The translations under genes and the position numbers were made by a program. This document shows, in pieces, positions 15,954 through 60,629 of a stretch of 64,000 bases of DNA (the stretch's first letter is position 1; the number at the start of each line of letters is the position of its first letter). Source of the stretch: Streptomyces sulphureus DSM 40104 (lineage in GTDB: Bacteria > Actinomycetota > Actinomycetes > Streptomycetales > Streptomycetaceae); the NCBI RefSeq assembly GCF_000381025.1, contig NZ_KB905816.1:372001-436000 (forward strand), written 5' to 3'. Under the pieces are notes generated by a model, which searched no databases, was not told where the DNA came from, and saw only the letters and a program-made list of their open reading frames with translations.

Positions 15954-17111
15954 ATGGCAAGCCAGGCACTCGCTCACGGGATGGGGACGTTCTTCAAGGA
16001 CTGCGAGCATCCCCGCTCGCGATGGTCCAAGTGCCCGCACACCTACAAGATCCGCTACCGGGACGTCGCCGGTAGGCAGAAGGAGGAGGCCGGCTACACG
16101 ACCCAGGAGCGGGCGGTCTCCCGTTTGACGGAGCTCTACAACCTGAAGAAGACCGCACCCCGCAGTCTCAGCAAGATCGAACGCGTGCGCACCTACGGTC
16201 CCATGCGGTTCGAGGACTACGCACGCGAATGGCGCGCCGGCCAAAGGGACTTGGGGCCGGCGTCCCTACGGCATCTCGACTCGCTGCTCGCGCACCATCT
16301 TCTCCCTGCCTTCGCCAGCCGCCGCATGGACTCTTTCGACCACAAGGTCATCGACAGGTTCGTGCAAGGCATGGAAGCCCAAGAAATCGGCCAAGCCGCC
16401 CAGTTGAACGCTTTCGAAAAGCTCAAGGCGATACTTCTCGACGCCCATAAGCTCGGCCTCTACGACGAAGACCCATTGGAAGGCGTCAAGCCACCTCAGT
16501 ACGCACCAGACCGCGCTGTCATCCCCTCCCCCAGCCAGCTCCGGTTGATCCGGGACGCGAGCAACGACACGTTCCGCCTCGTCACCGACCTCATGAGCGG
16601 CTGCGGCCTCCGCAACGGAGAAGCCCTCGCCGTCAACCTCAACAATCTCGTGGCCAACGATGTCTACCGCGTCTGCGAACAGGTCAACCAGACCACCCAG
16701 ACCTACGCCCCACTCAAGCACCGCAAACGAGGCGACTACCGGGACGTCCCCCTGCCGGCCAGCGTGCGCGAAACCATCGAGCGGTACGCCGAGAAGCACG
16801 GCGACATCGACGGCTACCTGCTCAGGAACCCCAAGGACGCCGCCAGGCCACTCCCCAACCACTCGCTCGACAACCTGTGGCGCCGAGTCATCCGCCAGCG
16901 CGCCCGGATCGGCATCCCAAACGGAATGGTCCTCTACGGGCTACGCCACTTCTTCGCCTCGAACTGCCTGACCCACGGAATACCCATCACCGATGTCGCG
17001 GAATGGATGGGCCACCGAAGCGTCGATATCACCTTCAGGATCTACCGCCACCTGCTCCCAGGCTCCATCGGCCGAGCCGCTGAGACCCTAAACCTTGCTC
17101 TGGCGAGCTAA
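15954..17111 (+). CDS. int: Tyrosine site-specific integrase
   Basis: A 385-residue phage/ICE-type integrase. The N-terminus has an Arm-type fold with a CxxH-like cluster (KDCEHPRSRWSKCPHTYKIRY), a SAM-like core-binding domain follows (about residues 85-175), and then the catalytic domain. Catalytic residues visible are Arg in GCGLRNGEA, Arg-His in YGLRHFFAS, His in WMGHRSVDIT and the nucleophile Tyr in FRIYRHLLPG. The box-II His of the usual HxLRH is Tyr (YGLRH). ATG 15954 is well placed after CGAGGAGG; the extension to 15864 is unsupported. It reads towards the excisionase-like gene. Confidence 0.92.
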   Translation: MASQALAHGMGTFFKDCEHPRSRWSKCPHTYKIRYRDVAGRQKEEAGYTTQERAVSRLTELYNLKKTAPRSLSKIERVRTYGPMRFEDYAREWRAGQRDLGPASLRHLDSLLAHHLLPAFASRRMDSFDHKVIDRFVQGMEAQEIGQAAQLNAFEKLKAILLDAHKLGLYDEDPLEGVKPPQYAPDRAVIPSPSQLRLIRDASNDTFRLVTDLMSGCGLRNGEALAVNLNNLVANDVYRVCEQVNQTTQTYAPLKHRKRGDYRDVPLPASVRETIERYAEKHGDIDGYLLRNPKDAARPLPNHSLDNLWRRVIRQRARIGIPNGMVLYGLRHFFASNCLTHGIPITDVAEWMGHRSVDITFRIYRHLLPGSIGRAAETLNLALAS

Positions 17112-21071: not shown

Positions 21072-21770
21072 TCACCCCGTGGCCTGGTCAGTCCCCACCT
21101 CGCCAGCCGCGAGCCGCTCGTCGATGTGCTGTGCCAACTGCTCGCCCGCCCTGTGGATGTGCTCGACCATCCGGATGCGTGCGGCCTTCGAGTCACCCTC
21201 CAGGACGGCGGTCAGCAGACCCGCGTGGTCCTCCACGGTGGTGCGCGACCACCCCTCGATGCTCGCGTAGAAGCGGCGGGGCACGTACCGGGAGAGAAGG
21301 CCGACGACCCAGGCGAGGCGTGGCGCGTCGGCGATCAGGTTGAGCTCGCGGTGGAACTTGTGGTTCCACTCCTCCTGCGCCGCGCTCTCCCCCTCCGCGG
21401 CAGCGGCGATCAACGCCTCGTGGATCTCCTGGAGTCGGCTCACCTGCTCCGGGTCCACCCGCTCGGCCGCGCGCGCCGCGAGCTCGCCGGCGACGAAGGA
21501 CTGGGCGAGGAATATGTCGCGGATGTCGTCGCCGGTCATGCTGGCGACGGTGAACCCCCGGCGCGGCTCCAGACTGAGGAAACCCTCGGCACGCAGCGCC
21601 TGCAACGCCTCTCTGGCCGGCGTGGAGGAGATACCCATCTCGGCGGAGACGACCTCGGCCCGAACACGCGTGCCCGGCGCGAGAGTTCCCGAAGTGATGA
21701 GGTCGCGCAGGTAGGAGGCGGCCTCCTCGCTCAGCTGCGGCCTCGCGCGCCGCGCCGGAAAGGCACCCAT
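21072..21770 (-). CDS. GntR/FadR-type regulator with FCD domain
   Basis: A 232-residue regulator. The winged HTH reads LRDLITSGTLAPGTRVRAEVVSAEMGISSTPAREALQALRAEGFL, and the helical FCD ligand domain has metal-site histidines around HKFHRELNLIA and RMVEHIHRAGEQL. FCD regulators often sense carboxylates or acyl-CoAs. I chose ATG 21770 (GGGGGG upstream); an ATG six bases earlier is equally possible. It lies downstream of the BVMO/ABC operon on the same strand and is a plausible regulator of it. Confidence 0.88.
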   Translation of the reverse strand: MGAFPARRARPQLSEEAASYLRDLITSGTLAPGTRVRAEVVSAEMGISSTPAREALQALRAEGFLSLEPRRGFTVASMTGDDIRDIFLAQSFVAGELAARAAERVDPEQVSRLQEIHEALIAAAAEGESAAQEEWNHKFHRELNLIADAPRLAWVVGLLSRYVPRRFYASIEGWSRTTVEDHAGLLTAVLEGDSKAARIRMVEHIHRAGEQLAQHIDERLAAGEVGTDQATG

Positions 21771-22231
21771 CCCCATCCCCCCTGCCTCGTGCGCGAGGGC
21801 GTCGCCGTGGAGAGCAGCGACACCGGACCCGCTCTCGTGTCGGCAGAATATTATCTGCACTACGTCGTCGGGACGCGTCGCCCTGCCACTCCCACGCCAC
21901 GAGGGACAGTCGGCGACCATCTCCCAACCGCCCTTGGCGGGGGCCGACTTCGCCTCGTCGGCGGTGTCCGGCCCGCCCGGCCAGGTGTACCGCCGGGGCG
22001 GCAGGACCTGTCGCGCCGGTGTCCCGTGCCCGGTGTCGCGGCTGGTCCGCCTGCTCCGACGACCGCCGGGCCACCGCTCCGGAGTAGTCGACGGCGACTG
22101 GAAGTTCGGAGGCACTCCGGGCGCTGCCCCCTGCCGCGGTGAAGAGCCTGTCGGCCAATTCGGCGCCGCCCAGGGGCCGCACGTGCGTACCCGTGCCATC
22201 GCCGGGAGCGGGTGTACCGGACCTCGTGCGC
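21771..22231. other. Gene-free region between GntR and the BVMO gene
   Basis: About 460 bp with no convincing gene. The GntR promoter side contains a rare AT-rich element (21843-21858). The remainder is high-GC sequence whose open frames have no recognisable product. Confidence 0.5.
21843..21858. promoter_or_regulatory. AT-rich dyad upstream of the GntR gene
   Basis: GCAGAATATTATCTGC has 5-bp inverted arms (GCAGA/TCTGC) around an AT-rich core, 73 bp before the GntR start. On the minus strand it contains GATAATAT, which recurs upstream of the ABC transporter operon at 27207-27214. It could be a shared GntR operator or a promoter -10 region. Confidence 0.4.
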
Positions 22232-24157
22232 TCATCGGGCGCCCCACGTCCGGTAGTGCTCCAGCTGCGGGCCCCGTGTCATGCGCCAGAACTCAAGGGT
22301 GGTCAACGGCCAGTTCTGGGTCACGCGTCCGGAGGCGGACTTGTACCAGTTGGTGACGCCCTCCACGCCGAAGGCCATCCGTGCGCTCGCCGCGTCGAGG
22401 CGGGTGTAGTACGCGTGCAGCGCCTGCCACGTCGGTTCCATCGCGGCGTGCCCGTGCTCCATCAGGTGGGCGAGGCAGGCGACGACGTACTCGGCCTCGG
22501 CCTCGGAGGAGAAGACGATGCTGCCGTTGACCACCAGGTTGGTGTTGGGCCCGTACAACAGGAAGAGGTTGGGGAAGTTGGGGACGGTGACCCCGGCGTA
22601 GGCCCGTGCGTCGTCGGCCCACTGCTCGTGGAGGTCCACACCACCTCGACCACGCACTTGCAGCGTGCTGAGGAAATCGGAGGCGGTGAAGCCCGTGCCG
22701 TAGACGAGCACGTCCGCCGGGTGCTCGACACCGTCCGCGGTACACAGGCCGCCCTCGGCAACCTCGGTGATCGGCTCGGTGACCACGGCGACGTTGTCGC
22801 GCTTGAGCGCGGCGGCCCACGCGCCGTCGTCGCGCAGCATGCGTTTGGCATAGGGCGGATAGTCGGGCGTCATCTTCGCCAGCAGGTCGGGCCGGTCCGC
22901 GTAGACCTGCTCAAGGTGGCCAATGAGGGCGGCGCGCAGCTCCTCGTTGGCCTGCGAGACGGAGCCGGGCACGTCCCACTCCGGGTCGACGAGCGCGAAC
23001 CTGCGCCGGCCCTCGACGTTGGTCCAGAACTGCTGGAAGCGGTACCACTGGCGATACAGCGGTATCTCGGCGAAGAGCCAGCGCAGGCCGGGGCGCAGCT
23101 TCCGGGTGTAGACTGGGGTGGGCACCACCCAGGGCGGTGTCCGCTGGAAGACGGTCAGCTTCCCCACTTCGCGGGCGATCCGGGAGATGACCTGGAAGGC
23201 ACTGGCGCCGGTTCCGACCACAGCCACCCGCTTGCCCGCCAGCGGAACGTCGTGCTTCCAGCGTGCCGTGTGCCAGGAGGGGCCGGCGAAGCGCTCGCGG
23301 CCCGGCAGGTCGGGGTAGCGGGGATTGTTCAGCTGGCCGACCGCGCTGACGACGGCGTCGGCGCGGACGCTCTCGCGGCGGCCCCGCCGGTCTTCGACCT
23401 CCAGCGTCCAGCGATGCTCCGTCTCGTCCCAGACGGCCGAGCGCACCTGTGTGCCGAAACGGATGGCGTCGCGGATGCCGAGGTCGTGCGAGGCGCTGTG
23501 CAGGTAGTCGAGGACGGTCGGGCCTGGCGAGTAGTGGTCCTCCCAACCCTCTCGCTGTGCGAAGGAGTAGCTGTAGCAGAAGTTGCTGGTGTCCAGCCGA
23601 ACGCCCGGGTAGTTGTTCTCCCGCCAGACGCCTCCGACATCTTCGTGGCGTTCGAAGACCACAAAGGGGATGCCGGCTTGCCGCAGATGGTGGGCAGCCG
23701 CGATGCCGGACATCCCCGCGCCGATGACGGCCACGAGGTAGCCCTCCGGTACCTCGGCGGGGCCTGCTGCGGCGGTGCGCTGGAGCCCCTCCGGCTCGAT
23801 TCCCAACTGATGGTAGAGCAGTGGGAGTTGCTCCCGGTCCACCGGACCGGCGAGGAACCGCATGATTTCCAGGAGCTCTTCCGGGCGCGGACGTCTCGGG
23901 GCCGGCCGCCCGCGTTCGACCCAGCGCTCGACGGCCGCCTCGGCGAGCTGACGGGCCCTCGCCTGTGCCGCCTCGTCGAGCCCGCCCTGCGGGGCCTGCC
24001 CGAGCACCTGCGAGAGGCGCGCCGGACGCAGCCGCGCCTCCAGCAGCGTGAGGTCGCCGGTGAGGTGCGCGAGCGCGGGCAGCAGCGCGGGCAGCTCGGC
24101 CTCGGCCAACGCCCGGCGGAGGCCGGGGCCTTGCAGCGCGTACGGTGTGTCGTTCAC
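22232..24157 (-). CDS. Baeyer-Villiger monooxygenase, HAPMO-like
   Basis: A 641-residue flavin monooxygenase. About 140 N-terminal residues form a helical extension, as in 4-hydroxyacetophenone monooxygenase (about 640 residues). The FAD motif GAGMSG is at 146-151. The type I BVMO fingerprint FAGPSWHTARW is at 290-300, followed by Lys instead of the usual Pro/Asp. The NADPH motif GTGASA is near 315, and FQRTPPWVVP follows. It would insert oxygen next to a ketone to form an ester or lactone. The GTG at 24157 overlaps the stop of the transporter binding-protein gene, so it is translationally coupled to an importer. Confidence 0.93.
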   Translation of the reverse strand: MNDTPYALQGPGLRRALAEAELPALLPALAHLTGDLTLLEARLRPARLSQVLGQAPQGGLDEAAQARARQLAEAAVERWVERGRPAPRRPRPEELLEIMRFLAGPVDREQLPLLYHQLGIEPEGLQRTAAAGPAEVPEGYLVAVIGAGMSGIAAAHHLRQAGIPFVVFERHEDVGGVWRENNYPGVRLDTSNFCYSYSFAQREGWEDHYSPGPTVLDYLHSASHDLGIRDAIRFGTQVRSAVWDETEHRWTLEVEDRRGRRESVRADAVVSAVGQLNNPRYPDLPGRERFAGPSWHTARWKHDVPLAGKRVAVVGTGASAFQVISRIAREVGKLTVFQRTPPWVVPTPVYTRKLRPGLRWLFAEIPLYRQWYRFQQFWTNVEGRRRFALVDPEWDVPGSVSQANEELRAALIGHLEQVYADRPDLLAKMTPDYPPYAKRMLRDDGAWAAALKRDNVAVVTEPITEVAEGGLCTADGVEHPADVLVYGTGFTASDFLSTLQVRGRGGVDLHEQWADDARAYAGVTVPNFPNLFLLYGPNTNLVVNGSIVFSSEAEAEYVVACLAHLMEHGHAAMEPTWQALHAYYTRLDAASARMAFGVEGVTNWYKSASGRVTQNWPLTTLEFWRMTRGPQLEHYRTWGAR

Positions 24158-25287
24158 GGACGCGGGAGGCCCACGGCCTCGGCGACGAAGGAGCGGTCCA
24201 CGATGCGGCGCTCCGGTATCGGCTCCGTGTATTGCAGCACGTGTGCCTCCTCGTACATCGCCTGGTGCCGTCGGGTGACACCGGGCGGGAAGTCCCAGTT
24301 GAAGTGGTATGAGGGCGTGTCGCGGAGTTGGTCGACGGTGACGCCCATGGCCTTCGCCTCCGCTTTCAGCGCGTCGGGGTCGGCCTTGTAGTCGCCGGCG
24401 AGGTGGGTGTTGATCGTCCGGACGTAGGCGCGGGTGAGGGCGAGGGCGGCTGGCCGGTCCTCGGAGAGCGAGGGGCCGAAGTAGACCCCACCGTTGGAGC
24501 CGCCGGGCTCGGTGTCGCTGGCGAGGAAGGTGTAGTCGTCGCTGCCCTTCATCGGCACCCAGAACGGGTCGAGCATCATCGCCGCGTCGATCGAGCCGTT
24601 GGAGAGCGCAGTCGCCGCGTCGGCGACGTCGATCGACTCGAAGGAGACGTCGTTGACGCTGAGTCCGGCGGCGTGCAGCTTGTCCGCGAAGGCCAGGTTC
24701 GCCGCCGAGCCGACCCCCACGGCGCTGCCGATCCGCTTGCCCTTGAGGTCCTCGACCTTCACTCCGTCGCCGGCTGCCCAGATACCGGCGCCCGACTCCC
24801 GGCTGCTCCAGCCCTGTCCGAGCGCCAGCCGGATGTCGAAGCCCTGGCTCAGGGCATTGTAGAAGGCCGCGCTGGAGGAGGCGGCGACCGCGTCGACCCG
24901 TCCGTCGGCGAGGAGTTGGATGGAGTCGGCCGGCGGCAGAATCGAGATCTCTACATCGAGGTTCTCCCGCTCGAACTCCCCCAGCGACTCCGCCATCACC
25001 AAGGGCGCGACGAACTCGGCCGACTTCGAGGACATCGCGAGCGTGATCGTCCGCCGCTTCTCCAGGCGTACGGGGGCGGGACTGCCTGCCTCGCAGCGGG
25101 TCGGCCCCCTCTTCGGGTCGTCGACCAGCGCGAAGTCGGCGCGCTCGCCGCAGCCGGCGACCGGTTGCAGGGGGGATGGGGCGGCGGCGAACCGGGGCGG
25201 GCGCTCGTCCTTCGACCCGGCCTGGGCCCCGCACCCGGCCAGCACCAACATCCCCGCGGCGAGCGCCGGCAGGAGCTTCTTCGTCAT
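24154..25287 (-). CDS. ABC transporter substrate-binding lipoprotein (NMT1/SsuA type)
   Basis: A 377-residue solute-binding protein. The lipobox LVLAGCGAQ gives a lipidated Cys near residue 19, then a linker, then the NMT1/THI5-like fold starting at RRTITLAMSSKSAEFVAPLVMAESLG. DLKGKRIGSAVGVGSAANLAF and AAMMLDPFWVPM are typical of sulfonate/nitrate/taurine or pyrimidine-precursor binding proteins. The region between lipobox and domain holds two extra cysteines (GCGERADF, TRCEAG). It is the third gene of the importer operon. The ligand is unknown and may be the substrate of the coupled BVMO. Confidence 0.9.
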   Translation of the reverse strand: MTKKLLPALAAGMLVLAGCGAQAGSKDERPPRFAAAPSPLQPVAGCGERADFALVDDPKRGPTRCEAGSPAPVRLEKRRTITLAMSSKSAEFVAPLVMAESLGEFERENLDVEISILPPADSIQLLADGRVDAVAASSSAAFYNALSQGFDIRLALGQGWSSRESGAGIWAAGDGVKVEDLKGKRIGSAVGVGSAANLAFADKLHAAGLSVNDVSFESIDVADAATALSNGSIDAAMMLDPFWVPMKGSDDYTFLASDTEPGGSNGGVYFGPSLSEDRPAALALTRAYVRTINTHLAGDYKADPDALKAEAKAMGVTVDQLRDTPSYHFNWDFPPGVTRRHQAMYEEAHVLQYTEPIPERRIVDRSFVAEAVGLPRP

Positions 25288-25354
25288 TCCGGACCTCGAT
25301 CCCGCGAGGGGTCCGCGGCGCTCGGCCGGCTCCTCCAGAGACGTGGGGCGGCCA

Positions 25355-26230
25355 TCAGTCGATGCGCCTGGAGTGCTTCACCCAGGGGGTGACGAGCCGG
25401 CCGATGCGTTGGACGATCATGCTCAGGACGACGCCCATCAGGGAGACCGTGACGATCCCAACGTACATCTGGTCGTTCATGAAGAGACGGCGCGAGTCGA
25501 AGATGACGTAGCCGACGCCCGTCGTGCCGACGAGGAACTCCGAGGCGACGATCACGATGATGGAGACGCTGATGGCGACCCTCAGCGCGACGAAGACCGA
25601 GGGGAGCGCCGCGGGGACGAGGACCTGGGTGAACATGCGGACCGGGCCGAGGTCGAGCGACCTCGCCGCCTCGTGGTACCCCTCGGGGATGGAGGCGAAC
25701 GCCTCCATCGTGTAGATCCAGATGTAAAAGAAGACCGTGACGGAGATGATGACGAGGAGCGGCACCTCGCCGAGGCCGAAGATCGTGATGAAGACGGGGA
25801 GCAGCGCGAGTTTGGGCACCACGTAGACGGCGCTGAGCATCGGTTCGAGCGCGGCGCGCGCAGTGCGGTTGAGGCCCATGAGGGCACCCGCGGTGAACCC
25901 GGCGACGATTCCGATCCCGGCGCCTATCAGGACCCTGCGCAAGGTCAGCAGGATGTCGCTCCAGAAGTACCCCTCGGCGAGCAGCGAGGCGCCGGTGCGC
26001 AGGATCGTGGTCGGAGCGGGGAACATCCGCGCGTCGATCCAGCCGAGGCGCGCACCCAGCTCCCACAGCGCGAAGAGCGCCAGAGGGATGAGGACCGCGA
26101 GGCCCCCTTCGAGGAAGCGGCGGCGGCGTTGGAAGGCCGCGGCCCGGTCGAGGGTGCGCAGTGGTCTGCGGACGAAGACCGCGTCCTGCCGCGGGGTTCC
26201 GCGTCCGTCCGTCGCAGTCGGGCCCTTCAC
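25355..26230 (-). CDS. ABC transporter permease (SsuC/TauC type)
   Basis: A 291-residue integral membrane protein with about six membrane segments, starting after a charged tail of about 40 residues (GLAVLIPLALFALWELGARLG). The EAA loop that contacts the ATPase reads YHEAARSLDLGPVRMFTQVLVP. The family moves sulfonates, nitrate, taurine or related small anions. GTG 26230 overlaps the ATPase stop (GTGA). A 67-bp gap precedes the binding-protein gene. Confidence 0.92.
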   Translation of the reverse strand: MKGPTATDGRGTPRQDAVFVRRPLRTLDRAAAFQRRRRFLEGGLAVLIPLALFALWELGARLGWIDARMFPAPTTILRTGASLLAEGYFWSDILLTLRRVLIGAGIGIVAGFTAGALMGLNRTARAALEPMLSAVYVVPKLALLPVFITIFGLGEVPLLVIISVTVFFYIWIYTMEAFASIPEGYHEAARSLDLGPVRMFTQVLVPAALPSVFVALRVAISVSIIVIVASEFLVGTTGVGYVIFDSRRLFMNDQMYVGIVTVSLMGVVLSMIVQRIGRLVTPWVKHSRRID

Positions 26231-27081
26231 AGTGTCGCCTGCGCGGTGCCGCCACGCTGTCCGGCCATCTGGGCCTGCACCTCGTCCCTGAGGTGAGTCC
26301 ACAGGTCGACCCGCAGCCGGCCGAACTCGGGCCCCTCCCGCACGCGGGTGTCGCGGGGGCGGCCGAACGGCACTCGGGTCTCGCTGAGCAGGGTTCCGGG
26401 ACGGGCCGTCATCACCACGACGCGGTCGGCGAGGACCAGTGCCTCTTCCAGACTGTGGGTGACGAAGACGACGGTGCGCCGCTCGGTCTGCGAGATGGTG
26501 AGCAGCTCCTCCTGGAGCATCTCCCGCATCTGTGCGTCGATGGCGGCGAACGGCTCGTCCATGAGCAGAATCTGGGGCTCGGTGGCGAGGGCGCGGGCGA
26601 TGGCGACTCGCTGCCGCATACCGCCGGAGAGGGTCTCTGGGTAGGCGTCGGCGAAGTCGGCGAGGCCGAGCCGGGCGAGCCACCGCATCGCGCGCTCGTT
26701 GGCATCCCGCCGCTCGACCCCCGCCGCGGCGAGGGCGAACTTCACGTTCCCGAGCACGGTCTTCCAGGGGAAGATGCCGAACCCCTGGAACACGGTGGCG
26801 ATCGGCGCGGGCGGATCGCCCTCGATGCGCACCGTCATCTCGCCAAAGGTCGGTGGAAGCAGCCCGGCGACGAGGCGTACGAAGGTGGACTTCCCGCAGC
26901 CGGAGGGCCCCACCAGGGAGACGAACTCCCCCTCGCCGATGTCGAGATCGAGCGGGCCGAGCGCGTGGACGGCGCCCGGCCCCGTGCCGAAGGAGCGCCC
27001 TATGCCCCGCGCGGAGATCTTCGCCGTTGGGCCGGAACTCGGATCTGCGGTCGTCTGGACGTCGTCAAGATGCACTCTCAC
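26227..27081 (-). CDS. ABC transporter ATP-binding protein (SsuB/TauB type)
   Basis: A 284-residue ATPase: Walker A GPSGCGKST, Q-loop VFQGFGIFPWKTV, signature LSGGMRQRVAIARALA, Walker B ILLMDEPFAAID, and switch His in VFVTHSLEEAL. The GTG at 27081 lies just after GAGGAGGATCT; the ATG frame from 27201 has no comparable ribosome-binding site. It is the first gene of the operon ATPase-permease-binding protein-BVMO. Confidence 0.95.
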   Translation of the reverse strand: MRVHLDDVQTTADPSSGPTAKISARGIGRSFGTGPGAVHALGPLDLDIGEGEFVSLVGPSGCGKSTFVRLVAGLLPPTFGEMTVRIEGDPPAPIATVFQGFGIFPWKTVLGNVKFALAAAGVERRDANERAMRWLARLGLADFADAYPETLSGGMRQRVAIARALATEPQILLMDEPFAAIDAQMREMLQEELLTISQTERRTVVFVTHSLEEALVLADRVVVMTARPGTLLSETRVPFGRPRDTRVREGPEFGRLRVDLWTHLRDEVQAQMAGQRGGTAQATL

Positions 27082-27206
27082 AGATCCTCCTCGATCCGCC
27101 CGAACCGCCGGTGAACAGCGGGGGTTCGGGACGTCGGAGCCGATGCTGCCCGGGCGAGGCTGACGGTAGGCCGACCCTGTGAGCTGGTCAATGCTTTCCA
27201 CATTCT

Positions 27207-27214
27207 ATATTATC
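27207..27214. promoter_or_regulatory. ATATTATC element in the importer promoter
   Basis: An AT-rich block about 126 bp upstream of the ATPase start. On the minus strand it reads GTGGATAATATAGAAT and shares GATAATAT with the dyad upstream of the GntR gene. In such GC-rich DNA this 8-mer is rare. It may be an operator or a -10 region. Confidence 0.35.
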
Positions 27215-27754
27215 CACTGATTCAACTCCCCGGCTTGCGACCTCAGTTGACGCCGCGGCAATCACGCTGCGCACGTGGAATGCGACCGCCGGAGGCTTGG
27301 ACGCTCGGCGCCGCGTGCGGAGAGAGCGCAACGGTGGTCGCCGACGGTTCCGTGGCGGCGCAGGTACCCGTGGTCGAAGACGGCCGGCCGGGGCCGGGCT
27401 GATGCATCCGAAGGAGGCGACGTCCTCCCGACAGCAGGTACCGGCCATGCCGCGCCCTCGCCGCCTTGGCTAGACGGGCCGTCAGATTAGAGCTGGCCCC
27501 ACGCCGGGACAACCGTCGCACGCAAACAAAAACAGCAGGGAAACGTCACTTTTTGTCCGCATCCACACAAGAATTGTGACCCACGGCGGCAGCTCCAGCG
27601 GCAGACTTTTGATGCATACTTCGTCAGAACAATCTGGACAGCGGCGGGTTCGGACTCCACACTCGTCTGACATCGCGTACCACACCAGCCAGCACGACGA
27701 CCGCTCTCCCGCCCGCCCCGATCGGTGCGGGAGAGCGCACGAGAGGTGGCAGCA
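27215..27754. other. Divergent promoter region, importer operon / MhpA-like gene
   Basis: About 540 bp without a convincing gene. From 27480 to 27640 the DNA is notably AT-richer (AAACAAAAACAGC, CTTTTTGTCC, TTTTGATGCATAC) and likely holds the promoter of the plus-strand hydroxylase. A small frame at 27188-27448 has no ribosome-binding site. Confidence 0.5.
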
Positions 27755-29371
27755 GTGACCGGTGACGACGCCGACGTCCTCGTGGTGGGTGCCGGCCCTG
27801 CCGGCCTGACCCTGGCCAACCTGCTCACCGAAGCCGGCGTCTCGGTGATCGTGCTGGAACGCAACGAGCACATCATCGACCACGCCAGGGCCGTCGGCAT
27901 CGACGACGAAGCGATCCGCACCCTTCAGACCTTCCGCCTCGCCGAGACGGTGCTCGCCAACTCCCTACAGAACGCGCCCATCCGCTACCACGATTCACGC
28001 GGCAGGGTCCTCACCCACGTCGCGCCCACGGCACGCCCCTACGGCTGGCCGCGCCGCAACCTCTTCCACCAGCCGTTCCTGGAGGAGCGCCTCCGCGAGG
28101 CCCTGGTGAACGCCGCGGGCCCGCAGGCCCTGCGCACCGGACACGAGGTGGTCGGCCTGGAGCAGGACGCCGACGGAGTGCGCCTGACGGTCAGGACGGT
28201 AGGCGAACGCCGCTCCCTTCGCGCCCGGTTCGCGGTGGGCGCCGACGGCGGACGCAGCTTCGTGCGCGACGCCGTCGGCGTACGGCTGCACGGCACCACC
28301 GCACCGAGCAAGTGGCTGGTCGTGGACGTCTCCAAGGACAGCTGGGACGCCCCGTACTCCGCCGTCTACACCTCGGCCGACCGGCCGGCCATGACCATTC
28401 CGCTCCCCTTCGGGCTGCGGCGGTTCGAATTCCGGATCAAACCGGCCGAGGACCCGGAGGCCTTCGCAGCCGAGGGGAACGTCGCCGCGATGCTGCGCCG
28501 GTTCTACCCCACGGGCGAGCTGCCCACGGTGGTCCGCAGTCGGGTCTACTGGCACCACTCGCGGACGGCCTCCGCCTTCAGGTCGGGGTCCGTCTTCCTC
28601 GCGGGCGACGCGGCGCATCTGCAGCCGCCGTTCTTCGGCCAGGGCATGAACTCCGGACTGCGGGACGTGACCAACCTGTACTGGAAGCTGGCCGCCGCCG
28701 TCGAAGGCCGGGGCGGCGACGCTCTATTGGACTCCTACGACCGGGAACGCCGCCCCACCGCCGACGCGATGGTCGCCTTCGCGACCCAGATGGGCAGGTA
28801 CTACAAGGCGCGCAACCGCTTCACCGAGAGCGTACGCAACGCCCTCTTCCGCGGGTTGCAGCGCGTCCCCGGAGGCCGCGACTACATCCTCCAGATGAAG
28901 TACAAGCCGGCCCCCCGCTATACCGAGGGCTTGGTGGTGGACGGGCGGAACGCGGCACGGACCTCGCTGCTCGGGCGCGCCTTCCCTCAGCCGCAGGTCT
29001 CCACCGCCGACGGCCGACGCCGCCTCGACGACGTCCTCGGCGTCCGCACCGCCGTCCTCGCCCTCGCTCCCGACGCCACCGCGGCTCTGACCGACCGGAC
29101 CCTCGAGGGCATCCGTGCACAGGGCGGTGTGGTGTTCCAGTCTGCACCGCCGGGGATCTTCGAGCGGGCGTCGGTGGCCGTGCGCCAGGCCCAGCTCGAC
29201 CGCGGGGTCCTCGAACTCACCGACACCGACGGGACGTTGCGCGACCTGCTGCTCGCCCACCCGGACGACCAGCTCTACGTCATCCGCCCGGACCGCTACG
29301 TCGGCGCCACCGCACGCGCCGCCGACGCCGACCGCATCCTCGGGGAGTACCTCGCTCTGCTCGACGGATAG
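27755..29371 (+). CDS. MhpA-like FAD-dependent aromatic hydroxylase
   Basis: A 538-residue class A flavoprotein monooxygenase: GxGxxG (VVGAGPAGLTLANLL) near residue 12, the DG motif ARFAVGADGGRSFVR, and the GD motif VFLAGDAAHLQPPFFGQGMNSG. The length and C-terminal thioredoxin-like region match the 3-(3-hydroxyphenyl)propionate hydroxylase (MhpA) family, which hydroxylates phenolic acids before ring cleavage. The true substrate may differ; no meta-cleavage dioxygenase is visible in this window. GTG 27755 follows GAGAGGTGGCAGCA. Confidence 0.88.
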   Translation: MTGDDADVLVVGAGPAGLTLANLLTEAGVSVIVLERNEHIIDHARAVGIDDEAIRTLQTFRLAETVLANSLQNAPIRYHDSRGRVLTHVAPTARPYGWPRRNLFHQPFLEERLREALVNAAGPQALRTGHEVVGLEQDADGVRLTVRTVGERRSLRARFAVGADGGRSFVRDAVGVRLHGTTAPSKWLVVDVSKDSWDAPYSAVYTSADRPAMTIPLPFGLRRFEFRIKPAEDPEAFAAEGNVAAMLRRFYPTGELPTVVRSRVYWHHSRTASAFRSGSVFLAGDAAHLQPPFFGQGMNSGLRDVTNLYWKLAAAVEGRGGDALLDSYDRERRPTADAMVAFATQMGRYYKARNRFTESVRNALFRGLQRVPGGRDYILQMKYKPAPRYTEGLVVDGRNAARTSLLGRAFPQPQVSTADGRRRLDDVLGVRTAVLALAPDATAALTDRTLEGIRAQGGVVFQSAPPGIFERASVAVRQAQLDRGVLELTDTDGTLRDLLLAHPDDQLYVIRPDRYVGATARAADADRILGEYLALLDG

Positions 29372-30101: not shown

Positions 30102-31754
30102 ATGACCAACCGCGACGCTCCGTCAGGCGAGGGCCGCCCGCGCACGTCTACCGGCTCCACCACGACCACGGACGACGCACGGCTCGCCCCCTTCAGAGAC
30201 GGCACCTATCTGGACGGCACCGGGATATGGGACCTGGTCCTCCGGCGGGCCGAAGCGACCCCCGGCACCCAGCTGGTCGTCGACGAGACACGGCGGCGGA
30301 TGACCTTCGGCGAGTACCGGGACGCGGCGGAACGTGTCGCGGCGGGTCTCGCCGAGCGCGGGGTGCGCGCCGGAGACGTGGTCTCCTGGCAGCTGCCCAG
30401 CCGGATCGACACGATGGTGCTCCTCGCCGCACTCTCCCGACTCGGCGCCGTACAGAACCCGTTGATCATGATGTTGCGCGAGCCGGACGTGGAGTTCATC
30501 TGCCGCCAGGCGGGTAGCCGGTTCCTCATCGTCCCCGAGGAGTTCCGCGGGTACGGGCACGGCGCGATGGCCGACGCCCTCGCCCTGCGCCAGGAAGGGC
30601 TCCGGGTCGTGCGTACCGACGGCGGCCTGCCGGAAGCCGACCCCGTCGGGTTGCCGGAGGCCGAACACCCGGGCGTCGGCTGGCTGTTCTACACCTCGGG
30701 GACCACCTCAGCCCCCAAAGGCGCACGCCACGTCGATGCGGGACTGCTGGCCGCGGCGCGCACGTTCTGCACGGCGGTGGAGCCCGAGGGGGACGACGTG
30801 GTCGCCTCGCTCGCCCCGATGGCCCACGTCGGCGGCGTACTCCACGTCGTGGCCGCGTTGATGACCGGCGCACGGCTGGTCATCAGCGCGACCTACTCGC
30901 CGGCCGAGACCGCGCAACTGCTCAGCGAGGAGCGGGTGACGCTCGGCGGCTCGGGCGTGCCCTTCATCCGGGGGTTGCTGCAGGAGCAGCGCGCAGCGGC
31001 CCCGACCCGCCTCTTCCCCGAGGCGCGTGCGTGGCTGGTGGGCGGCGCGTCCAGGACGGAGGCGCTCCACCGGGAGGTGCGGGACGAGCTCGGTGGCGTC
31101 GGTGTCGTCTCCGGGTACGGGCTGACCGAGTGCCCATTCGTCAGCTGGGGGCGGCTCGACGACGGCGACCATGAGCACGCGACCGCCGACGGTCGTCCGG
31201 GGCCTGGCACGCACGTCCGGATCGTCGCCGGGGACGGTCGTGAGAAACCGGCGGGCGAGCCGGGCGAACTGCGGGTGAAAGCAGATCAGTTGATGCTCGG
31301 TTATGTGGACGGTGCTCTCGACGCCGAGGCGTTCGACGAGCGGGGGTACTTCCGGACGGGGGATCTCGCGGTCCTCGATGAGCGGCGGTTCCTGACGATC
31401 ACGGGCCGGATCAAGGACGTGATCATCAGGAACATGGAGAACATCCCCGCCCGCGAGGTGGAGATGCACCTCGCGACGCACCCGGACCTCGCAGACGTGG
31501 CGGTGATCGGGCTGCCGGACGAGCGCACCGGCGAGCGCGTCTGCGCCGTGGCGGTGGTGGCCGACGGACGGAGCGGGCCCACGTTGCAGGAAGTGTGCGG
31601 GCAGCTCTCGCAGCGTGGCCTCAACACGAGGAAACTCCCTGAGCAGTTGGAGTTCGTCGAGGAACTTCCGCGGAACGCGATGGGCAAGGTGGTCAAGACC
31701 GCGCTGCGCACACGGTTCGCGTCGGGGACACGGGCAGGGGGCGAACACGCCTGA
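30102..31754 (+). CDS. AMP-forming acyl-CoA ligase
   Basis: A 550-residue adenylate-forming enzyme. The P-loop is LFYTSGTTSAPKG, the A5 motif GYGLTECPF, A7 YFRTGDLA, A8 GRIKDVIIRNMENI and A10 PRNAMGKVVK with the catalytic Lys. It activates a carboxylic acid to its CoA ester; the class resembles FadD and cyclohexane/benzoate-like ligases, with substrate unclear. ATG 30102 follows CGGGAGGCGACC. The N-terminal frame extension upstream belongs to gene relics. Confidence 0.92.
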   Translation: MTNRDAPSGEGRPRTSTGSTTTTDDARLAPFRDGTYLDGTGIWDLVLRRAEATPGTQLVVDETRRRMTFGEYRDAAERVAAGLAERGVRAGDVVSWQLPSRIDTMVLLAALSRLGAVQNPLIMMLREPDVEFICRQAGSRFLIVPEEFRGYGHGAMADALALRQEGLRVVRTDGGLPEADPVGLPEAEHPGVGWLFYTSGTTSAPKGARHVDAGLLAAARTFCTAVEPEGDDVVASLAPMAHVGGVLHVVAALMTGARLVISATYSPAETAQLLSEERVTLGGSGVPFIRGLLQEQRAAAPTRLFPEARAWLVGGASRTEALHREVRDELGGVGVVSGYGLTECPFVSWGRLDDGDHEHATADGRPGPGTHVRIVAGDGREKPAGEPGELRVKADQLMLGYVDGALDAEAFDERGYFRTGDLAVLDERRFLTITGRIKDVIIRNMENIPAREVEMHLATHPDLADVAVIGLPDERTGERVCAVAVVADGRSGPTLQEVCGQLSQRGLNTRKLPEQLEFVEELPRNAMGKVVKTALRTRFASGTRAGGEHA

Positions 31755-32321: not shown

Positions 32322-33713
32322 ATGATGTCGCTCCCCGAATCCACGCGGTCCGATCCGACACCACCCTCCTCCACCTCACCGGAGATGATCGGTGCCAGGA
32401 TCGACCGACTCCCCCACGGCCGCTTCCAACGCCGTGTCCTCATCTGCACGGTCCTGGCGTTCATCTTCGAGATCGGGGACCAGAACGCCGCTGGTCTGAC
32501 GGCGAGCGCGATCCGCGACCGTTTCGACACCGACCTGACGGGCATCGCCTTCGCGGTCTCCGCCATGTACCTCGGCCTGCTGGTCGGAGCGGTACTCGCC
32601 GGTCAGGGCGACCGGTTCGGGCGCCGCTTCATGATCATCACCGGCATGGTGTCGATGTCCCTCTTCTCCGGGGTCAGCGCGATGTCCACCGGCATCGTGA
32701 TGCTGGTCCTCGTGCGCTTCCTGACGGGTATCGGGCTCGGCCTGATCTACATCAGCATCGTGGTCTACCTCTCCGAGGTCTTCCCCGTCCGGCGCCGCGC
32801 CTTCGCCGTAGGACTCGGCATCGGCATCGCCGCGCTGGGCTCCATCGGCCTCACCCAACTCGCCCGCGTCGTGGTTCCGTGGGGCGAGCACGGCTGGCGG
32901 ATCGTGTTCCTCGTCGGACTGCTGGGCCTGTTGGCCGTGCCGGTGTGCAGCAAACTCCCGGAATCACCCCGCTGGTTGGCCGCGCGAGGGCGCGGCGAGG
33001 AGGCCGACGCGACGCTGCGGGAGCTCGAGCGTGAGGCGGAGGAGCGCCACGGGCCCCTCCCGGAGCCGCAACTCCCGGAGAAATCACCGGGGTTGGAGGA
33101 CTCCCCGAAGGACGCCGCCACTCGTTCGCTCTTCCAGGGGAAGATGCTGGTAAGTCTCATCATGCTGATGGTCGTGTGGATCTGCTACTCGCTCGCGATG
33201 CAGGTGATGAACACGTGGACGCCGACGGTGCTCAGCCTGCGCGGCTTCAGCGACGCGGAGGCGCTCTCCACCACCTCGCAGCTCTTGGTCGGTTCGCTCA
33301 TCGGCTCCGCCGTGGCGATCACCGTCGGTGACCGGCTGCCCCGTCGCGGCGGCATCATCCTCTTCACCGGTCTCGCCGCCCTCGCCATGCTCACCTTCGG
33401 CCTCTCCGGCAGTCATCTGATCATCGTCCTCGCCGGCGCGACCGTGCACTTCACCATCGGCGCGGGGACGCCGCTGCTCAACGCGTACGCCGCCGAGCGG
33501 TTCCCGCCGCACCTGCGGTCGCGCGGCAGCGGATTCAGCTACTCGGTGGGCCGGTTCACCAACGTCATCGCCCCGTTCACGATCGCCGGAGTACTGGAGG
33601 CGCTGGGGTACAAGTCCGTCGCCTGGGGCGGCTTCGCAGCCTGGGGGCTGATCGCTCTGACGGTGCTGGTCCTCGGCGCCCGACGAGGAAGGCCCAGCGC
33701 CCCCATCGAATAG
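32322..33713 (+). CDS. MFS transporter, sugar/aromatic-acid importer type
   Basis: A 463-residue permease with 12 predicted membrane segments. The GxLxDRxGRR-type motif appears as GQGDRFGRRFMII after TM2, RFLTGIGLGLIYISIVVYLSEVFP lies around TM4, PESPRWL comes after TM6, and a charged central loop (residues about 215-260) precedes TM7. This layout fits the AAHS aromatic-acid or general metabolite:H+ symporters. Two adjacent ATGs (32322, 32325) follow GGAA. It probably imports the substrate of the surrounding catabolic genes. Confidence 0.88.
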   Translation: MMSLPESTRSDPTPPSSTSPEMIGARIDRLPHGRFQRRVLICTVLAFIFEIGDQNAAGLTASAIRDRFDTDLTGIAFAVSAMYLGLLVGAVLAGQGDRFGRRFMIITGMVSMSLFSGVSAMSTGIVMLVLVRFLTGIGLGLIYISIVVYLSEVFPVRRRAFAVGLGIGIAALGSIGLTQLARVVVPWGEHGWRIVFLVGLLGLLAVPVCSKLPESPRWLAARGRGEEADATLRELEREAEERHGPLPEPQLPEKSPGLEDSPKDAATRSLFQGKMLVSLIMLMVVWICYSLAMQVMNTWTPTVLSLRGFSDAEALSTTSQLLVGSLIGSAVAITVGDRLPRRGGIILFTGLAALAMLTFGLSGSHLIIVLAGATVHFTIGAGTPLLNAYAAERFPPHLRSRGSGFSYSVGRFTNVIAPFTIAGVLEALGYKSVAWGGFAAWGLIALTVLVLGARRGRPSAPIE

Positions 33714-53895: not shown

Positions 53896-54813
53896 TCAAC
53901 GGGGCAGCAGACGCTCCGCGATGGTGGTCAGGTCCGCTGTGAAGGCGTCGAAGCTACGGCTGGCAGGTTCGATGGTGATCCAAGTGACGCCGGCCTTCTC
54001 GTAGTCGGCGAGCCGCGGCTTCAACGCGTCGCAGAACTCCCCCACGTCTCCGCTGCGCAGGAGGTCCTTCTCGAACGGCACGAAGGAGACGTCGGCCGGT
54101 GGCCTGCCGTCCGCTGCCCGGTGCTCGTTCTGCTCCGCGATCATGCTGCGCAGGGAGTCGAGATCGGAGAGGGGCGGTGTGCGCGTGATCTCCGCCATCT
54201 CGGCCGACTGCGCCATCGGCATCCACCCGTCGGCGAGTTGACGTACCCGGCGCCGGGCCGCGGCGCTGTTTCCCCCGACCCAGATCGGCGGGCCGCCGGC
54301 CTGAGCCGGGCCTGGCAGTGCCAGGTGGCCCTCGATACCGAACTCCGGCCCTGCGTGCTCCTGGCCGGCCCAGGTGGCGCGCATCGCCGTGATCGCCTCG
54401 TCGAGGAGCTTGCCCCGGCGGGCGAAGTCCGCACCGAGCGCCTCGAATTCCGACTTGAGGTAGCCGGCGGCCATGCCGAGGGTGAGCCGGCCGCCGGAGA
54501 GCAGGTCGAGGCTGGCGGCGGACTTCGCTGCCAGGTAGGGGCTGCGGTATCCGGCGACCATCACGTAGGTGATCACCCGCAGGCGCGTGGTGGCGGCGGC
54601 CATCATGCTCAGTGACACGAACGGGTCGAAGGCGTGGTGCCCGCCGCCCGCGAGCCACTCCCTGTCCGGGTACGGGTGCTCGCTCATCGCGATCCCGTCG
54701 AACCCGGCGTCCTCCACCGCACGGGCCACCTCGCCGAGACTGTGGCCCGCGATCCAGCGCTCGTAGTGCTTGACCGCCCGCATCGGGAACATGACGTTGA
54801 ACTTCAGTGGCAT
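53896..54813 (-). CDS. LLM-class flavin-dependent oxidoreductase
   Basis: A 305-residue luciferase-like TIM-barrel protein. Features are MPLKFNVMFPMRAVKHYERW, SEHPYPDREWLAGGGHHAFDPFVSLSMMAAATTRLRVITYV, AAKSAASLDLLSGGRLTLGMAAGYLKSEFEALG, and PPIWVGGNSAAARRRVRQLADGWM. The family uses F420 or FMNH2. It is 16 bp from the acyl-CoA dehydrogenase gene upstream. Role: hydride transfer or monooxygenation of a pathway intermediate, unspecified. Confidence 0.9.
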   Translation of the reverse strand: MPLKFNVMFPMRAVKHYERWIAGHSLGEVARAVEDAGFDGIAMSEHPYPDREWLAGGGHHAFDPFVSLSMMAAATTRLRVITYVMVAGYRSPYLAAKSAASLDLLSGGRLTLGMAAGYLKSEFEALGADFARRGKLLDEAITAMRATWAGQEHAGPEFGIEGHLALPGPAQAGGPPIWVGGNSAAARRRVRQLADGWMPMAQSAEMAEITRTPPLSDLDSLRSMIAEQNEHRAADGRPPADVSFVPFEKDLLRSGDVGEFCDALKPRLADYEKAGVTWITIEPASRSFDAFTADLTTIAERLLPR

Positions 54814-56023: not shown

Positions 56024-56610
56024 CGCCGTGCCTGTGCACCGAACCGGAGGGCTCGGGCGCTCTCCAACTGCGGCACGTGGTTCGCCTCGTACTGGGCTAT
56101 CCACTCCTCGGGCAGCTTGCCCCAGGCCGGGCCGATGCGCAGTCGCTCGCCACCGTGCAGCACCTCGGCCGCCACCACGTCGCCGACGAAGATCGAGCTC
56201 TCCTGGACGTCGAGGGTGCCGGTGACCCGGGCTTCCACGTAGCTGTGGGCGTCGAGCAGGACGGGGGCTCCGGTGACACCAGGCTCGGTACGCAGCCGGG
56301 AGAGCTTGTCCCCGTCCCTGCCGGAGCTGCCGCCGAGGGTCTTGAGGATTTCGAGCGAGCTATCGACCTGGGCGTCCTCCGCGCTGAGCAGGTGCATCAC
56401 GAAGATGCCGGAGTCCAGGACCATGTCGTGGGTCCTGTTGTACTTGGTGAGGCTGATGGTGGCCCGGGGCGCCTCGGGGATGATGCTGGCCGCTCCAGCG
56501 GAGAGCGACACCAGGCCGTTGGCGAAGCCGCCGTCGACGGTGGTGATCGCCACGGGGAAGGGCCGGAGCCCGGAGAGGACGCGATCGGCCGCTTCGAGGT
56601 CAAGTGTCAT
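56020..56610 (-). CDS. Flavin reductase domain protein
   Basis: A 196-residue FMN/FAD reductase of the split-barrel family: PFPVAITTVDGGFANGLVSLSAGAASIIPEAPRATISLTKYNRTHDMVLDSGIFVMHLLS, with HSYVEARVTGTLDVQESSIFVGDVVAAEVL. It supplies reduced flavin to a partner monooxygenase. Directly overlaps the acyl-CoA dehydrogenase gene; the LLM protein downstream is another candidate client. Confidence 0.88.
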   Translation of the reverse strand: MTLDLEAADRVLSGLRPFPVAITTVDGGFANGLVSLSAGAASIIPEAPRATISLTKYNRTHDMVLDSGIFVMHLLSAEDAQVDSSLEILKTLGGSSGRDGDKLSRLRTEPGVTGAPVLLDAHSYVEARVTGTLDVQESSIFVGDVVAAEVLHGGERLRIGPAWGKLPEEWIAQYEANHVPQLESARALRFGAQARR

Positions 56611-59711: not shown

Positions 59712-60629
59712 TCAGCTCACTTCCTTGGAGTCCGTACGCGGGAGCGCCTCGTCGAGGAAGTCGAGCAGCCGCGCGGTGAAGACGTCGTTGTCGTCGCCGG
59801 CCACCATGTGGCCGACGTCCTGCACGTCGGCGACGGACAGGTGCGGGATCAACTCCCGCATCTCGGCGACCCCCTCGGCCGAGACGACGTCCGACTGAAG
59901 GCCCCGGACGAGCATCACCGGGCAGGTGAGGCTGCGGGCGGCGCGCCGACTGCGACGGTAGATCTCCGCACCGAGCGCGGCCTGTTCGTCGTCGGTCCTG
60001 CCGGGGGCGAGCATCGCGGGGTCCCAGTGCCAGTGCCAACGGCCCTCGCGCAGCCTGAGGTTCTTCTTCAGGCCCTCCAGCGAACCGGAGCGCCGTCGGT
60101 GCGGGTTGTAGGCGGCGATCGCGTCGGACGCCTCCTGGAGGGAGGCGAAGCCCTCGGGTGCACTCCCCATGAAGCGCTGGACGCGGCGGCTGCCTCCGGT
60201 CTCCACCCGTACCGCGATGTCCACCATGACGAGGGCCTCGGCGAGCCGGTGCTCGACGCCCATCCCCAGCAGCGCCACCTTGCCGCCGAGCGAGGCCCCG
60301 ACGAGGGCGAGGGGGATTCCACCCCAGGTCTCCCTGAGCCGTGCGACGACCGAGAGCAGGTCCTCCAGGTGGGCGCCGGTGGTGTAGTCGCCGTCGGGTG
60401 CCCACTCGCTGTCGCCGTGGCCGCGCAGGTCCATCGAGACCGCGACCCAGCCGGACGAGGCGAGCCGCCTGCCGGTGCCGTGCCACGAGTGCCGGGTCTG
60501 CCCGCCGCCGTGCAGCAGCAGGACGACTCCCAGCGGGGCCCGCGCGGGCGGCGTCCAGACATCGGCCGCCAACTGCACTCCGTCTCCGGGCAATTCGACG
60601 TTTCGGTGGTCAGGCCGCACCGACGTCAC
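59712..60629 (-). CDS. Alpha/beta hydrolase
   Basis: A 305-residue hydrolase. VVLLLHGGGQTRHSW is the oxyanion loop, Ser113 in LVGASLGGKV is the nucleophile, and late DVGHMV gives the His. Central cap residues include RWHWHWDPAML. The annotated first codon GTG 60629 sits on the GGAGGAG itself; GTG 60620 nine bases later has better spacing. It may hydrolyse an ester, a lactone (a BVMO product) or a C-C bond. It lies between thiolase and KorA genes on the same strand. Confidence 0.9.
   Translation of the reverse strand: MTSVRPDHRNVELPGDGVQLAADVWTPPARAPLGVVLLLHGGGQTRHSWHGTGRRLASSGWVAVSMDLRGHGDSEWAPDGDYTTGAHLEDLLSVVARLRETWGGIPLALVGASLGGKVALLGMGVEHRLAEALVMVDIAVRVETGGSRRVQRFMGSAPEGFASLQEASDAIAAYNPHRRRSGSLEGLKKNLRLREGRWHWHWDPAMLAPGRTDDEQAALGAEIYRRSRRAARSLTCPVMLVRGLQSDVVSAEGVAEMRELIPHLSVADVQDVGHMVAGDDNDVFTARLLDFLDEALPRTDSKEVS

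Follow-up and report, generated by a model that had tools for sequence, protein, structure and literature searches.

Gene content and organization of the locus

The window, as the whole 64,000-nucleotide stretch of Streptomyces sulphureus DSM 40104 analysed here is called, carries on its minus strand a single run of four genes, in the order ATPase, permease, binding lipoprotein and Baeyer–Villiger monooxygenase (BVMO), with a candidate cis element ahead of it:

27202..27214, minus strand: AT-rich element GATAATATAGAAT, candidate cis element about 120 bp 5' of the ATPase start
26227..27081, minus strand: ABC transporter ATPase, first in the run (PF00005, 107.7 bits)
25355..26230, minus strand: ABC permease (PF00528, 89 bits)
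24154..25287, minus strand: substrate-binding lipoprotein of the NMT1/THI5 (NitT/TauT) type (PF09084, 54.0 bits; cut-off 20.5)
22232..24157, minus strand: type I BVMO of 641 aa (PF00743, FMO-like, 67.9 bits; cut-off 22)

The coordinates confirmed the originally predicted gene order and GTGA overlap, whereby the GTG start of the BVMO gene at 24157 overlaps the stop of the binding-protein gene (24157-24154). Another GTGA overlap (26230-26227) joins the ATPase and permease genes. By eye, AGGAGG lies immediately 5' of the ATPase gene, which has an alternative GTG start at 27075, the binding protein has the lipobox LAGC, and no Shine-Dalgarno-like sequence was seen directly 5' of the BVMO start, which fits re-initiation. 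The BVMO gene is predicted to be translationally coupled to the binding-protein gene, and the importer genes and the BVMO are likely to be co-transcribed.

The gene content of the neighbourhood is that of aromatic and CoA catabolism. The features relevant for the interpretation are the following:

21072..21776, minus strand: GntR/FCD regulator (PF00392, PF07729)
21843..21858, minus strand: near-palindrome with the window's sole other GATAATAT, a candidate cis element ahead of the GntR gene
27725..29371, plus strand: MhpA-like flavoprotein hydroxylase, transcribed away from the importer operon (NF004831, 627.9 bits; cut-off 546)
30102..31754, plus strand: acyl-CoA ligase (PF00501, PF13193)
32322..33713, plus strand: MFS transporter with the aromatic acid/H+ symport family as nearest match (TIGR00895, 189.1 bits, below the cut-off of 418.55)
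59712..60629, minus strand: alpha/beta hydrolase, candidate esterase located over 30 kb away from the operon (PF00561, 68.5 bits)

The hydroxylase passes the equivalog cut-off for the 3-(3-hydroxyphenyl)propionate hydroxylase MhpA, whose substrate is its predicted one. The operon may be controlled by the GntR protein. The pair of GATAATAT copies has an expected number of 0.01, and two copies were found in 0/100 shuffles, a statistic that is optimistic because the motif was chosen after the sequence was viewed; GATAATAT could instead be a -10 element. An operator search saw no inverted repeat common to the window and Rhodococcus.

The monooxygenase

A scan of genome contigs with the single protein returned no relative, and an alignment scan was therefore used, from which the best 80 of 560 confirmed relatives were kept. 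By its motifs the enzyme is a type I BVMO with a predicted insertion of oxygen into ketones, and on sequence comparison it belongs to a widespread clade. Its fingerprint reads F290-x-G292-xxx-H296-xxx-W300-K301, with F, G, H and W conserved in 96/96 aligned ingroup rows. The terminal lysine singled out in the original prediction is real, in place of the classical final Pro or Asp, yet unremarkable: position 301 is D in 39, R in 25, N in 16, P in 11, E in 2, Q in 2 and K in 1 of the 96 rows, with P/D absent in 46, the window's BVMO among them. Since the position varies across the clade, it does not define the clade, and Lys301 is uninformative. The BVMO also has two Rossmann motifs and the second type I motif, [AG]GxWxxxx[FY]P[GM]xxxD (as worded in a passage of PMC6058054), with G176, W178, Y183, P184, G185 and D189 present in 96/96 ingroup rows.

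The proposed HAPMO-like N-terminal extension was likewise found: about 140 residues precede the FAD motif, helical at about residues 10-118 in an AlphaFold2 model (mean pLDDT 89.6), and residues 20-110 are covered in 94/96 ingroup rows vs 0/6 outgroup BVMOs. A fold search of the model, informative for residues 139-640 only, showed that this core resembles CHMO/PAMO structures. HAPMO is 640 aa long, similar to the window's BVMO. "HAPMO-like" here refers to extension and length as described for HAPMO; HAPMO of Pseudomonas fluorescens ACB is, in the relevant passage of PMC10028610, also a type I enzyme with an N-terminal extension.

The importer and its stand-alone relatives

All three importer proteins score over the cut-offs for the NitT/TauT (NMT1/THI5) type (PF09084, PF00528, PF00005), and all stay under those for the sulfonate/taurine importers SsuABC/TauABC. 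The best NCBIfam model for the ATPase is SaoA, at 203.4 bits under its cut-off of 360, so no equivalog was given to it; it reached 187.9 of 357 bits with TauB and 145.6 of 395 with SsuB. The permease is under cut-off with the SaoP, SsuC and NtrB models (SsuC 122.8 of 347 bits) and with TauC (90.3 of 342), and the binding protein scored 59.3 bits with SsuA_fam (cut-off 163.5). The binding protein has weak PDB matches to 3qsl, 3e4r and 4esw, and its single-sequence structure model (pLDDT 35.5) is too low in confidence for a pocket reading. The premise that such sulfonate-type importers normally serve desulfonation proved too narrow: aromatic-acid ABC importers are known, and a table in PMC10973024 names PatDABC, OphFGH and HbaEFGHI, here taken irrespective of binding-protein type.

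Trios with the identical order of ATPase, permease and binding protein stand alone in Streptomyces, Embleya and others, those of Streptomyces with recurring flanking genes (by eye). The window's ATPase, permease and binding protein are 56-64, 47-50 and 36-41% identical to them (14, 15 and 16 rows, respectively), whereas the binding proteins of the stand-alone family share 42-94% with one another. The window's trio is, as judged by these identities, a divergent member of this family. Its binding protein deviates at 32/109 positions conserved in the family, which is consistent with a changed ligand. In the host genome this protein gave just one match, its own; homologues occur in 63/342 other congeneric genomes, where few neighbourhoods were inspected.

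Unlike the window's trio, the stand-alone trios have no BVMO match in the sequence examined at any of the 16 inspected loci, and in the other genomes listed with matches to both, the trio and the BVMO were unlinked in 5/5. No second locus pairing this trio with this BVMO was found among the loci inspected, which speaks against a functional pair, and the idea that this importer family is dedicated to BVMOs is not supported. Trio relatives without the BVMO and a BVMO clade found mostly elsewhere, the two outcomes named beforehand as fatal, both occurred in the literal sense; what they refute is merely an ancestral, clade-wide pairing.

Importers beside related monooxygenases

The proposed survey of the BVMO clade found that importers recur, although among the loci inspected the pairing with this trio was seen in the window alone. 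At 10/95 BVMO loci an importer lies on the same strand no farther than 5 kb away (NitT/TauT-type at 2, LIV-type at 7, PAAT-type at 1), the importer-finding queries being drawn partly from these very loci. Six of the seven LIV-type cases represent one Burkholderiales lineage. Importer and BVMO share one directon at 6 of the 10 loci. In the directon comparison, 6/86 BVMOs share theirs with an importer where size-matched draws predict 0.94 (0/20,000 draws as high), with a thin control of 7/996 genes. By the first labelling, the same-strand importers fell into 9/30 rows of the BVMO subclade vs 0/65 outside it (p 1.2e-5); counting L100 makes it 1/65 outside (p 9.5e-5), and hand-collapsing lineages gives p 0.014. 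A plain distance comparison is weak: in a hand count, a same-strand ABC ATPase lay within 5 kb in 11 of about 158 flanks, the exporter-like L070 among them, and in 5 of about 127 at 5-10 kb. BVMO and importer are separated at L079 and L108 by a MarR-like gene on the other strand. In L059 and L196, one or more alpha/beta hydrolases stand together with the BVMO and importer genes.

Several loci were left out of the importer count. The ABC genes of L070 are exporter-like by eye; in S. canus L062 an ATPase and an NMT1 protein are encoded on the same strand, but 7-8 kb downstream; Polaromonas L057 has a PAAT-type importer on mixed strands; and at L063, L078, L081, L089, L092, L093, L130, L132 and L133 the ABC ATPases are farther off or on the opposite strand.

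A parallel in architecture is a plasmid of R. antarcticus (L050), where an NMT1 binding protein, two permeases and an ATPase directly precede a BVMO that belongs to the subclade of the window's enzyme and is 51.6% identical to it. This locus differs from the window in having two permeases, another gene order and genes of the gentisate type close by; the two ATPases share only 40% identity, and the binding proteins gave no match to each other. PMC12250605 mentions a Streptomyces BVMO with a peptide ABC transporter encoded downstream of it. No description of a BVMO-importer operon was recognised among the papers listed in the literature searches.

A second set of shared partners concerns the aromatic genes. 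MhpA-like genes (>150 bits) lie within 10 kb in 8/30 rows of the BVMO subclade vs 0/65 outside. Hydroxylases of this kind lie near the BVMO at two Rhodococcus loci, L049 and L055, and at L068 from a Streptosporangiaceae MAG; those of L049 and L068 are 57% and 64% identical to the window's. At L049 and L055 the BVMO also adjoins a 59-60% identical GntR regulator and an alpha/beta hydrolase. L049, on a linear plasmid of Rhodococcus rhodochrous GD02, encodes WP_085470789.1, 57.7% identical to the window's BVMO; like the window it has an adjoining GntR (59.6%, tblastn) and a nearby MhpA-like hydroxylase (56.7%), but the hydrolase comes next, and neither annotation nor search showed an importer within 10 kb. 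The GD02 gene for acetophenone, acpA, was rejected as the homologue, since its product is PAMO-like (PMC9618137) and its locus tag is a different one. LigB ring-opening dioxygenases accompany the BVMOs of L058 and L165. On the opposing side, the BVMO's sister group in the tree (Comamonadaceae, L057) has no GntR and no MhpA-like match.

Proposed function and alternatives

A catabolic operon for uptake and oxygenation, importing a ketone or close precursor that the BVMO then oxygenates, is the reading we favour, with confidence evenly balanced. The lipoprotein would capture the compound outside the cell, and the permease and ATPase would carry it in. With NADPH, O2 and FAD, the BVMO would place an oxygen next to the carbonyl, and the resulting ester would be split by a hydrolase encoded elsewhere; that the operon itself has none counts against the proposal. 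A released phenol would pass to the divergently transcribed MhpA-like hydroxylase and on to the surrounding CoA/aldolase-type genes. All chemistry of this pathway is predicted, and an aryl ketone seems the most likely ligand. The operon was probably acquired horizontally by the Streptomyces genome. Capture followed by oxygenation, as first proposed, thus keeps the support of one operon-like run, the aromatic/CoA neighbourhood and the importers near related BVMOs, and loses that of a dedicated importer family. Also against it, the nearby MFS transporter could be the pathway's real importer.

It is rather unlikely, though conceivable, that an aromatic or alicyclic acid is what the importer brings in; activated by the nearby CoA ligase and shortened, it would yield the ketone for the BVMO inside the cell. 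Charged ligands are common for NMT1-type binding proteins, small neutral ketones can diffuse, and acyl-CoA ligases, acyl-CoA dehydrogenases, CoA transferases, an enoyl-CoA hydratase and HpcH/HpaI-type genes are nearby. However, the ligase belongs to a divergent unit that has an MFS transporter of its own, the importer adjoins the BVMO, and L059 and L196 unite importer genes, BVMO and hydrolases.

A chance operon fusion, in which the trio still imports its ancestral nutrient and has no more than a promoter in common with the BVMO, is somewhat less probable. The BVMO-free trio loci (0/16) and the missing second genome with the pairing would agree with it; the position of the window's binding protein outside the family range (36-41% vs 42-94%), its sole match in the host genome and the recurrence of importers beside the BVMO subclade would not. 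Sulfur scavenging, with an organosulfur compound imported and oxidised at sulfur by the flavoenzyme, is very improbable: NitT/TauT importers include sulfonate transporters, BVMOs can oxidise sulfides, and a luciferase-like monooxygenase (53896-54813) and a flavin-reductase-domain protein (56020-56610) lie about 30 kb away, but the SsuA_fam score is far under its cut-off, the operon has no desulfonating enzyme, and the close neighbours serve aromatic and CoA catabolism.

Beyond the favoured reading of ketone uptake and oxygenation in this operon, a broader one is tentatively possible: that this subclade of N-terminally extended BVMOs repeatedly recruited high-affinity importers of unrelated binding-protein classes and ketone scavenging is general, the window representing one recruitment whose binding protein was remodelled from the otherwise stand-alone importer. 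The classes concerned are NMT1 and LIV within the subclade and PAAT in a related branch.

Among the loci inspected, the exact trio-BVMO pairing so far occurs in the window alone, and other importer types adjoin related BVMOs. To our knowledge, the natural substrates of HAPMO-like BVMOs are seldom known. Should the BVMO substrate prove to be the binding protein's ligand, this would offer a direct handle on them and show that bacteria import ketones actively. The importer-BVMO loci of the window, L050, L059, L100, L196 and the Burkholderiales set form a ready panel for ligand screening. Ketones are thought to enter cells by diffusion; were the recruitment reading true, their binding-protein-dependent scavenging would be general.

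Organization of the operon

The importer genes and the type I Baeyer-Villiger monooxygenase (BVMO) gene, each with Pfam support, form a single run:

27081-26227, minus strand: ABC ATPase
26230-25355, minus strand: ABC permease, GTGA overlap with the ATPase gene
25287-24154, minus strand: binding lipoprotein, 67 bp after the permease gene
24157-22232, minus strand: BVMO, start overlapping the binding-lipoprotein stop by GTGA

Coordinates, order and the binding-protein/BVMO overlap were as in the original prediction, which had proposed uptake of a small ketone-bearing compound followed by oxygen insertion; this class of function is plausibly right. No sulfonate, taurine or nitrate equivalog was found for the ATPase, permease and lipoprotein (the trio), all such NCBIfam models falling below cut-off (for the ATPase, among the best 25 of 187 families). 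The 64 kb of the window contain only two copies of the element GATAATAT, chosen after the sequence was seen (21843-21858 and 27202-27214; expected 0.01). One lies upstream of a GntR gene and the other upstream of the importer-BVMO run, and the element is a candidate operator or -10 element.

Features and distribution of the BVMO

The closest PDB sequences to the window BVMO were cyclohexanone, phenylacetone and steroid monooxygenases. In its predicted structure (mean pLDDT 89.6) the N-terminal region is helical and the core aligns with CHMO/PAMO chains, the best match reaching Z 38.9 with rmsd 2.5 over 473 residues. Both type I motif cores were invariant in a 35-sequence alignment and in the 96-row ingroup alignment. 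The lysine (K301) ending the FxGxxxHxxxW fingerprint, previously considered noteworthy, is uninformative because this position varies across the 96 ingroup rows (D 39, R 25, N 16, P 11, E 2, Q 2, K 1). The N-terminal extension was common to 94 of these rows vs none of six outgroup BVMOs. JsFMO, bearing a SnoaL-like domain, is a type II FMO (PMC10028610).

BVMO matches occurred in 10 of 343 sampled Streptomyces genomes at E 1e-110 and in 7 of 394 genomes of the class sample at E 1e-150, the window's included in both; the BVMO of one congener (G259) is identical to one from an S. canus record. The plasmid search gave 1130 matches among 72,556 records (best 57.6%, Rhodococcus rhodochrous GD02), and of 560 loci confirmed in genome contigs the best 80 were retained. 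In a quick maximum-likelihood tree (102 rows, SH-aLRT only, long-branch warnings), three Comamonadaceae sequences grouped with the window BVMO (SH-aLRT 99), with Rhodococcus and Streptosporangiaceae sequences near this group and the window BVMO inside a 30-row subclade (SH-aLRT 100). Contigs L109 and L126, labelled as Klebsiella pneumoniae and Bifidobacterium breve MAGs, carry BVMOs grouping with Pseudomonadales and Acidimicrobiia sequences; these organism labels may be wrong.

Importers beside related BVMOs

The survey covered 95 BVMO loci (4 plasmid, 80 contig, 10 congener and the window; L062 and L163 are one genome). Any ABC match within flanks of ~10 kb, many contigs being shorter, was found at 22 loci, and a same-strand importer within 5 kb at 10. 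The latter was NMT1-type (NitT/TauT) in the window and the R. antarcticus plasmid (L050), PAAT-type at L100, and LIV-type at L059 and six Burkholderiales loci (L076, L079, L080, L091, L099, L108), with Pfam run on L059 and L079. According to gene calls, importer and BVMO shared one directon, a run of same-strand genes, at six of the ten (window, L050, L059, L080, L099, L100). At L079 and L108 an opposite-strand MarR-like gene lies between them, at L091 the run is broken solely by one small opposite-strand ORF call, and at L076 the BVMO is missing from the gene calls. Six further loci were examined in the class sample; at one (L196, genome G697, 3.4 Mb) the genes for the BVMO, an ABC ATPase and two alpha/beta hydrolases overlap or adjoin one another, a BPD_transp_1 permease is encoded divergently, and no binding protein was recognised.

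With the first labels, same-strand importers within 5 kb occurred at 9/30 subclade loci vs 0/65 outside (p 1.2e-5); counting L100 gave 1/65 outside (p 9.5e-5), and collapsing lineages gave p 0.014. A directon was shared with an importer by 6 of 86 BVMOs (0.94 expected), against a thin control (7/996 control genes) and with importer queries drawn partly from the tested loci. A hand-counted distance comparison (near 11/~158 flanks, far 5/~127) gave no clear enrichment. Importers thus recur beside related BVMOs, and their enrichment there is likely but not firm, given the thin control, the locus-derived queries and the unclear distance comparison.

Pathway context

An MhpA-like hydroxylase within 10 kb of the BVMO was found in 8/30 subclade rows vs 0/65 others. 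GntR, BVMO, MhpA-like and alpha/beta hydrolase genes stand together in Rhodococcus (GD02, L049; L055), and two loci (L165, L193) have two MhpA-like genes near the BVMO, L165 in addition encoding a LigB dioxygenase and a member of the FAA-hydrolase family. The sister locus in the tree, from Polaromonas (L057), had no GntR or MhpA-like matches, which counts against a shared pathway context. In the window, GntR and MhpA-like genes flank the operon, CoA ligase, acyl-CoA dehydrogenase, CoA transferase and HpcH/HpaI genes lie farther out, and an alpha/beta hydrolase gene lies over 30 kb from it. A route from acetophenone to phenol via a different BVMO and an esterase is proposed for GD02 (PMC9618137), and LIV-type importers are noted near aromatic genes of C. 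necator JMP134 (PMC2842291).

In Streptomyces sp. SID8352 (L058, 7428-8376), genes resembling those for bacterial microcompartment shells (by eye) and a LigB dioxygenase are close to the related BVMO. An Asp/Glu racemase-family gene directly adjoins the BVMO in S. canus (L062, 9153-9971) and in Polaromonas (L057, 11942-12724; also arylmalonate decarboxylase-like). A tyrosine-recombinase-like integrase ORF (window 15954-17111), recognised by eye and matching no NCBIfam model at E 1e-20, adjoins a GC dip (0.625), with sugar/inositol genes (by eye) on one side and the aromatic catabolic region on the other; ORF and dip possibly mark an island boundary.

The importer trio away from the BVMO

Binding-protein homologues were found in 64 of 343 Streptomyces genomes (E 1e-40) and 11 of 394 class genomes (E 1e-30), the window's included, with identity of at most 43% among the matches listed, the window's own excepted. 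Sixteen trio loci were inspected, nine from congeners, two from Embleya plasmids and five from other members of the class. Flanking sequence extended at least ~7 kb each way in 13 and was short on one side or both in L139, L140 and L178. The trio was complete in 15, L140 being cut by the contig end, and no BVMO match at E 1e-5 was found in any of the 16. The same flanking genes recur (by eye) around the Streptomyces trios, which suggests that the stand-alone trio has a fixed place in this genus. Stand-alone NMT1-type importers of Streptomyces and Embleya include L053, L054 and L135-L142; several Streptomyces loci have a Fur-family-regulator-like gene nearby (by eye). Besides the window's, five genomes (G088, G261, G313, G462, G581) had matches to both BVMO and binding protein, the two genes being separated by ~150 kb to 3 Mb or placed on separate contigs.

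The window proteins shared 56-64% (ATPase), 47-50% (permease) and 36-41% (binding protein) identity with the stand-alone group, vs 67-93% (14 rows), 56-97% (15 rows) and 42-94% (16 rows) within it. The binding proteins of that group have 109 positions with at least 90% conservation; the window protein keeps 77 of them and differs at 32. Judged by sequence, the window trio falls outside the stand-alone group. The proposal of a dedicated importer fails for the importer family in general and survives as a lineage-specific recruitment. Overall, the window operon is an uncommon arrangement of ordinary parts.
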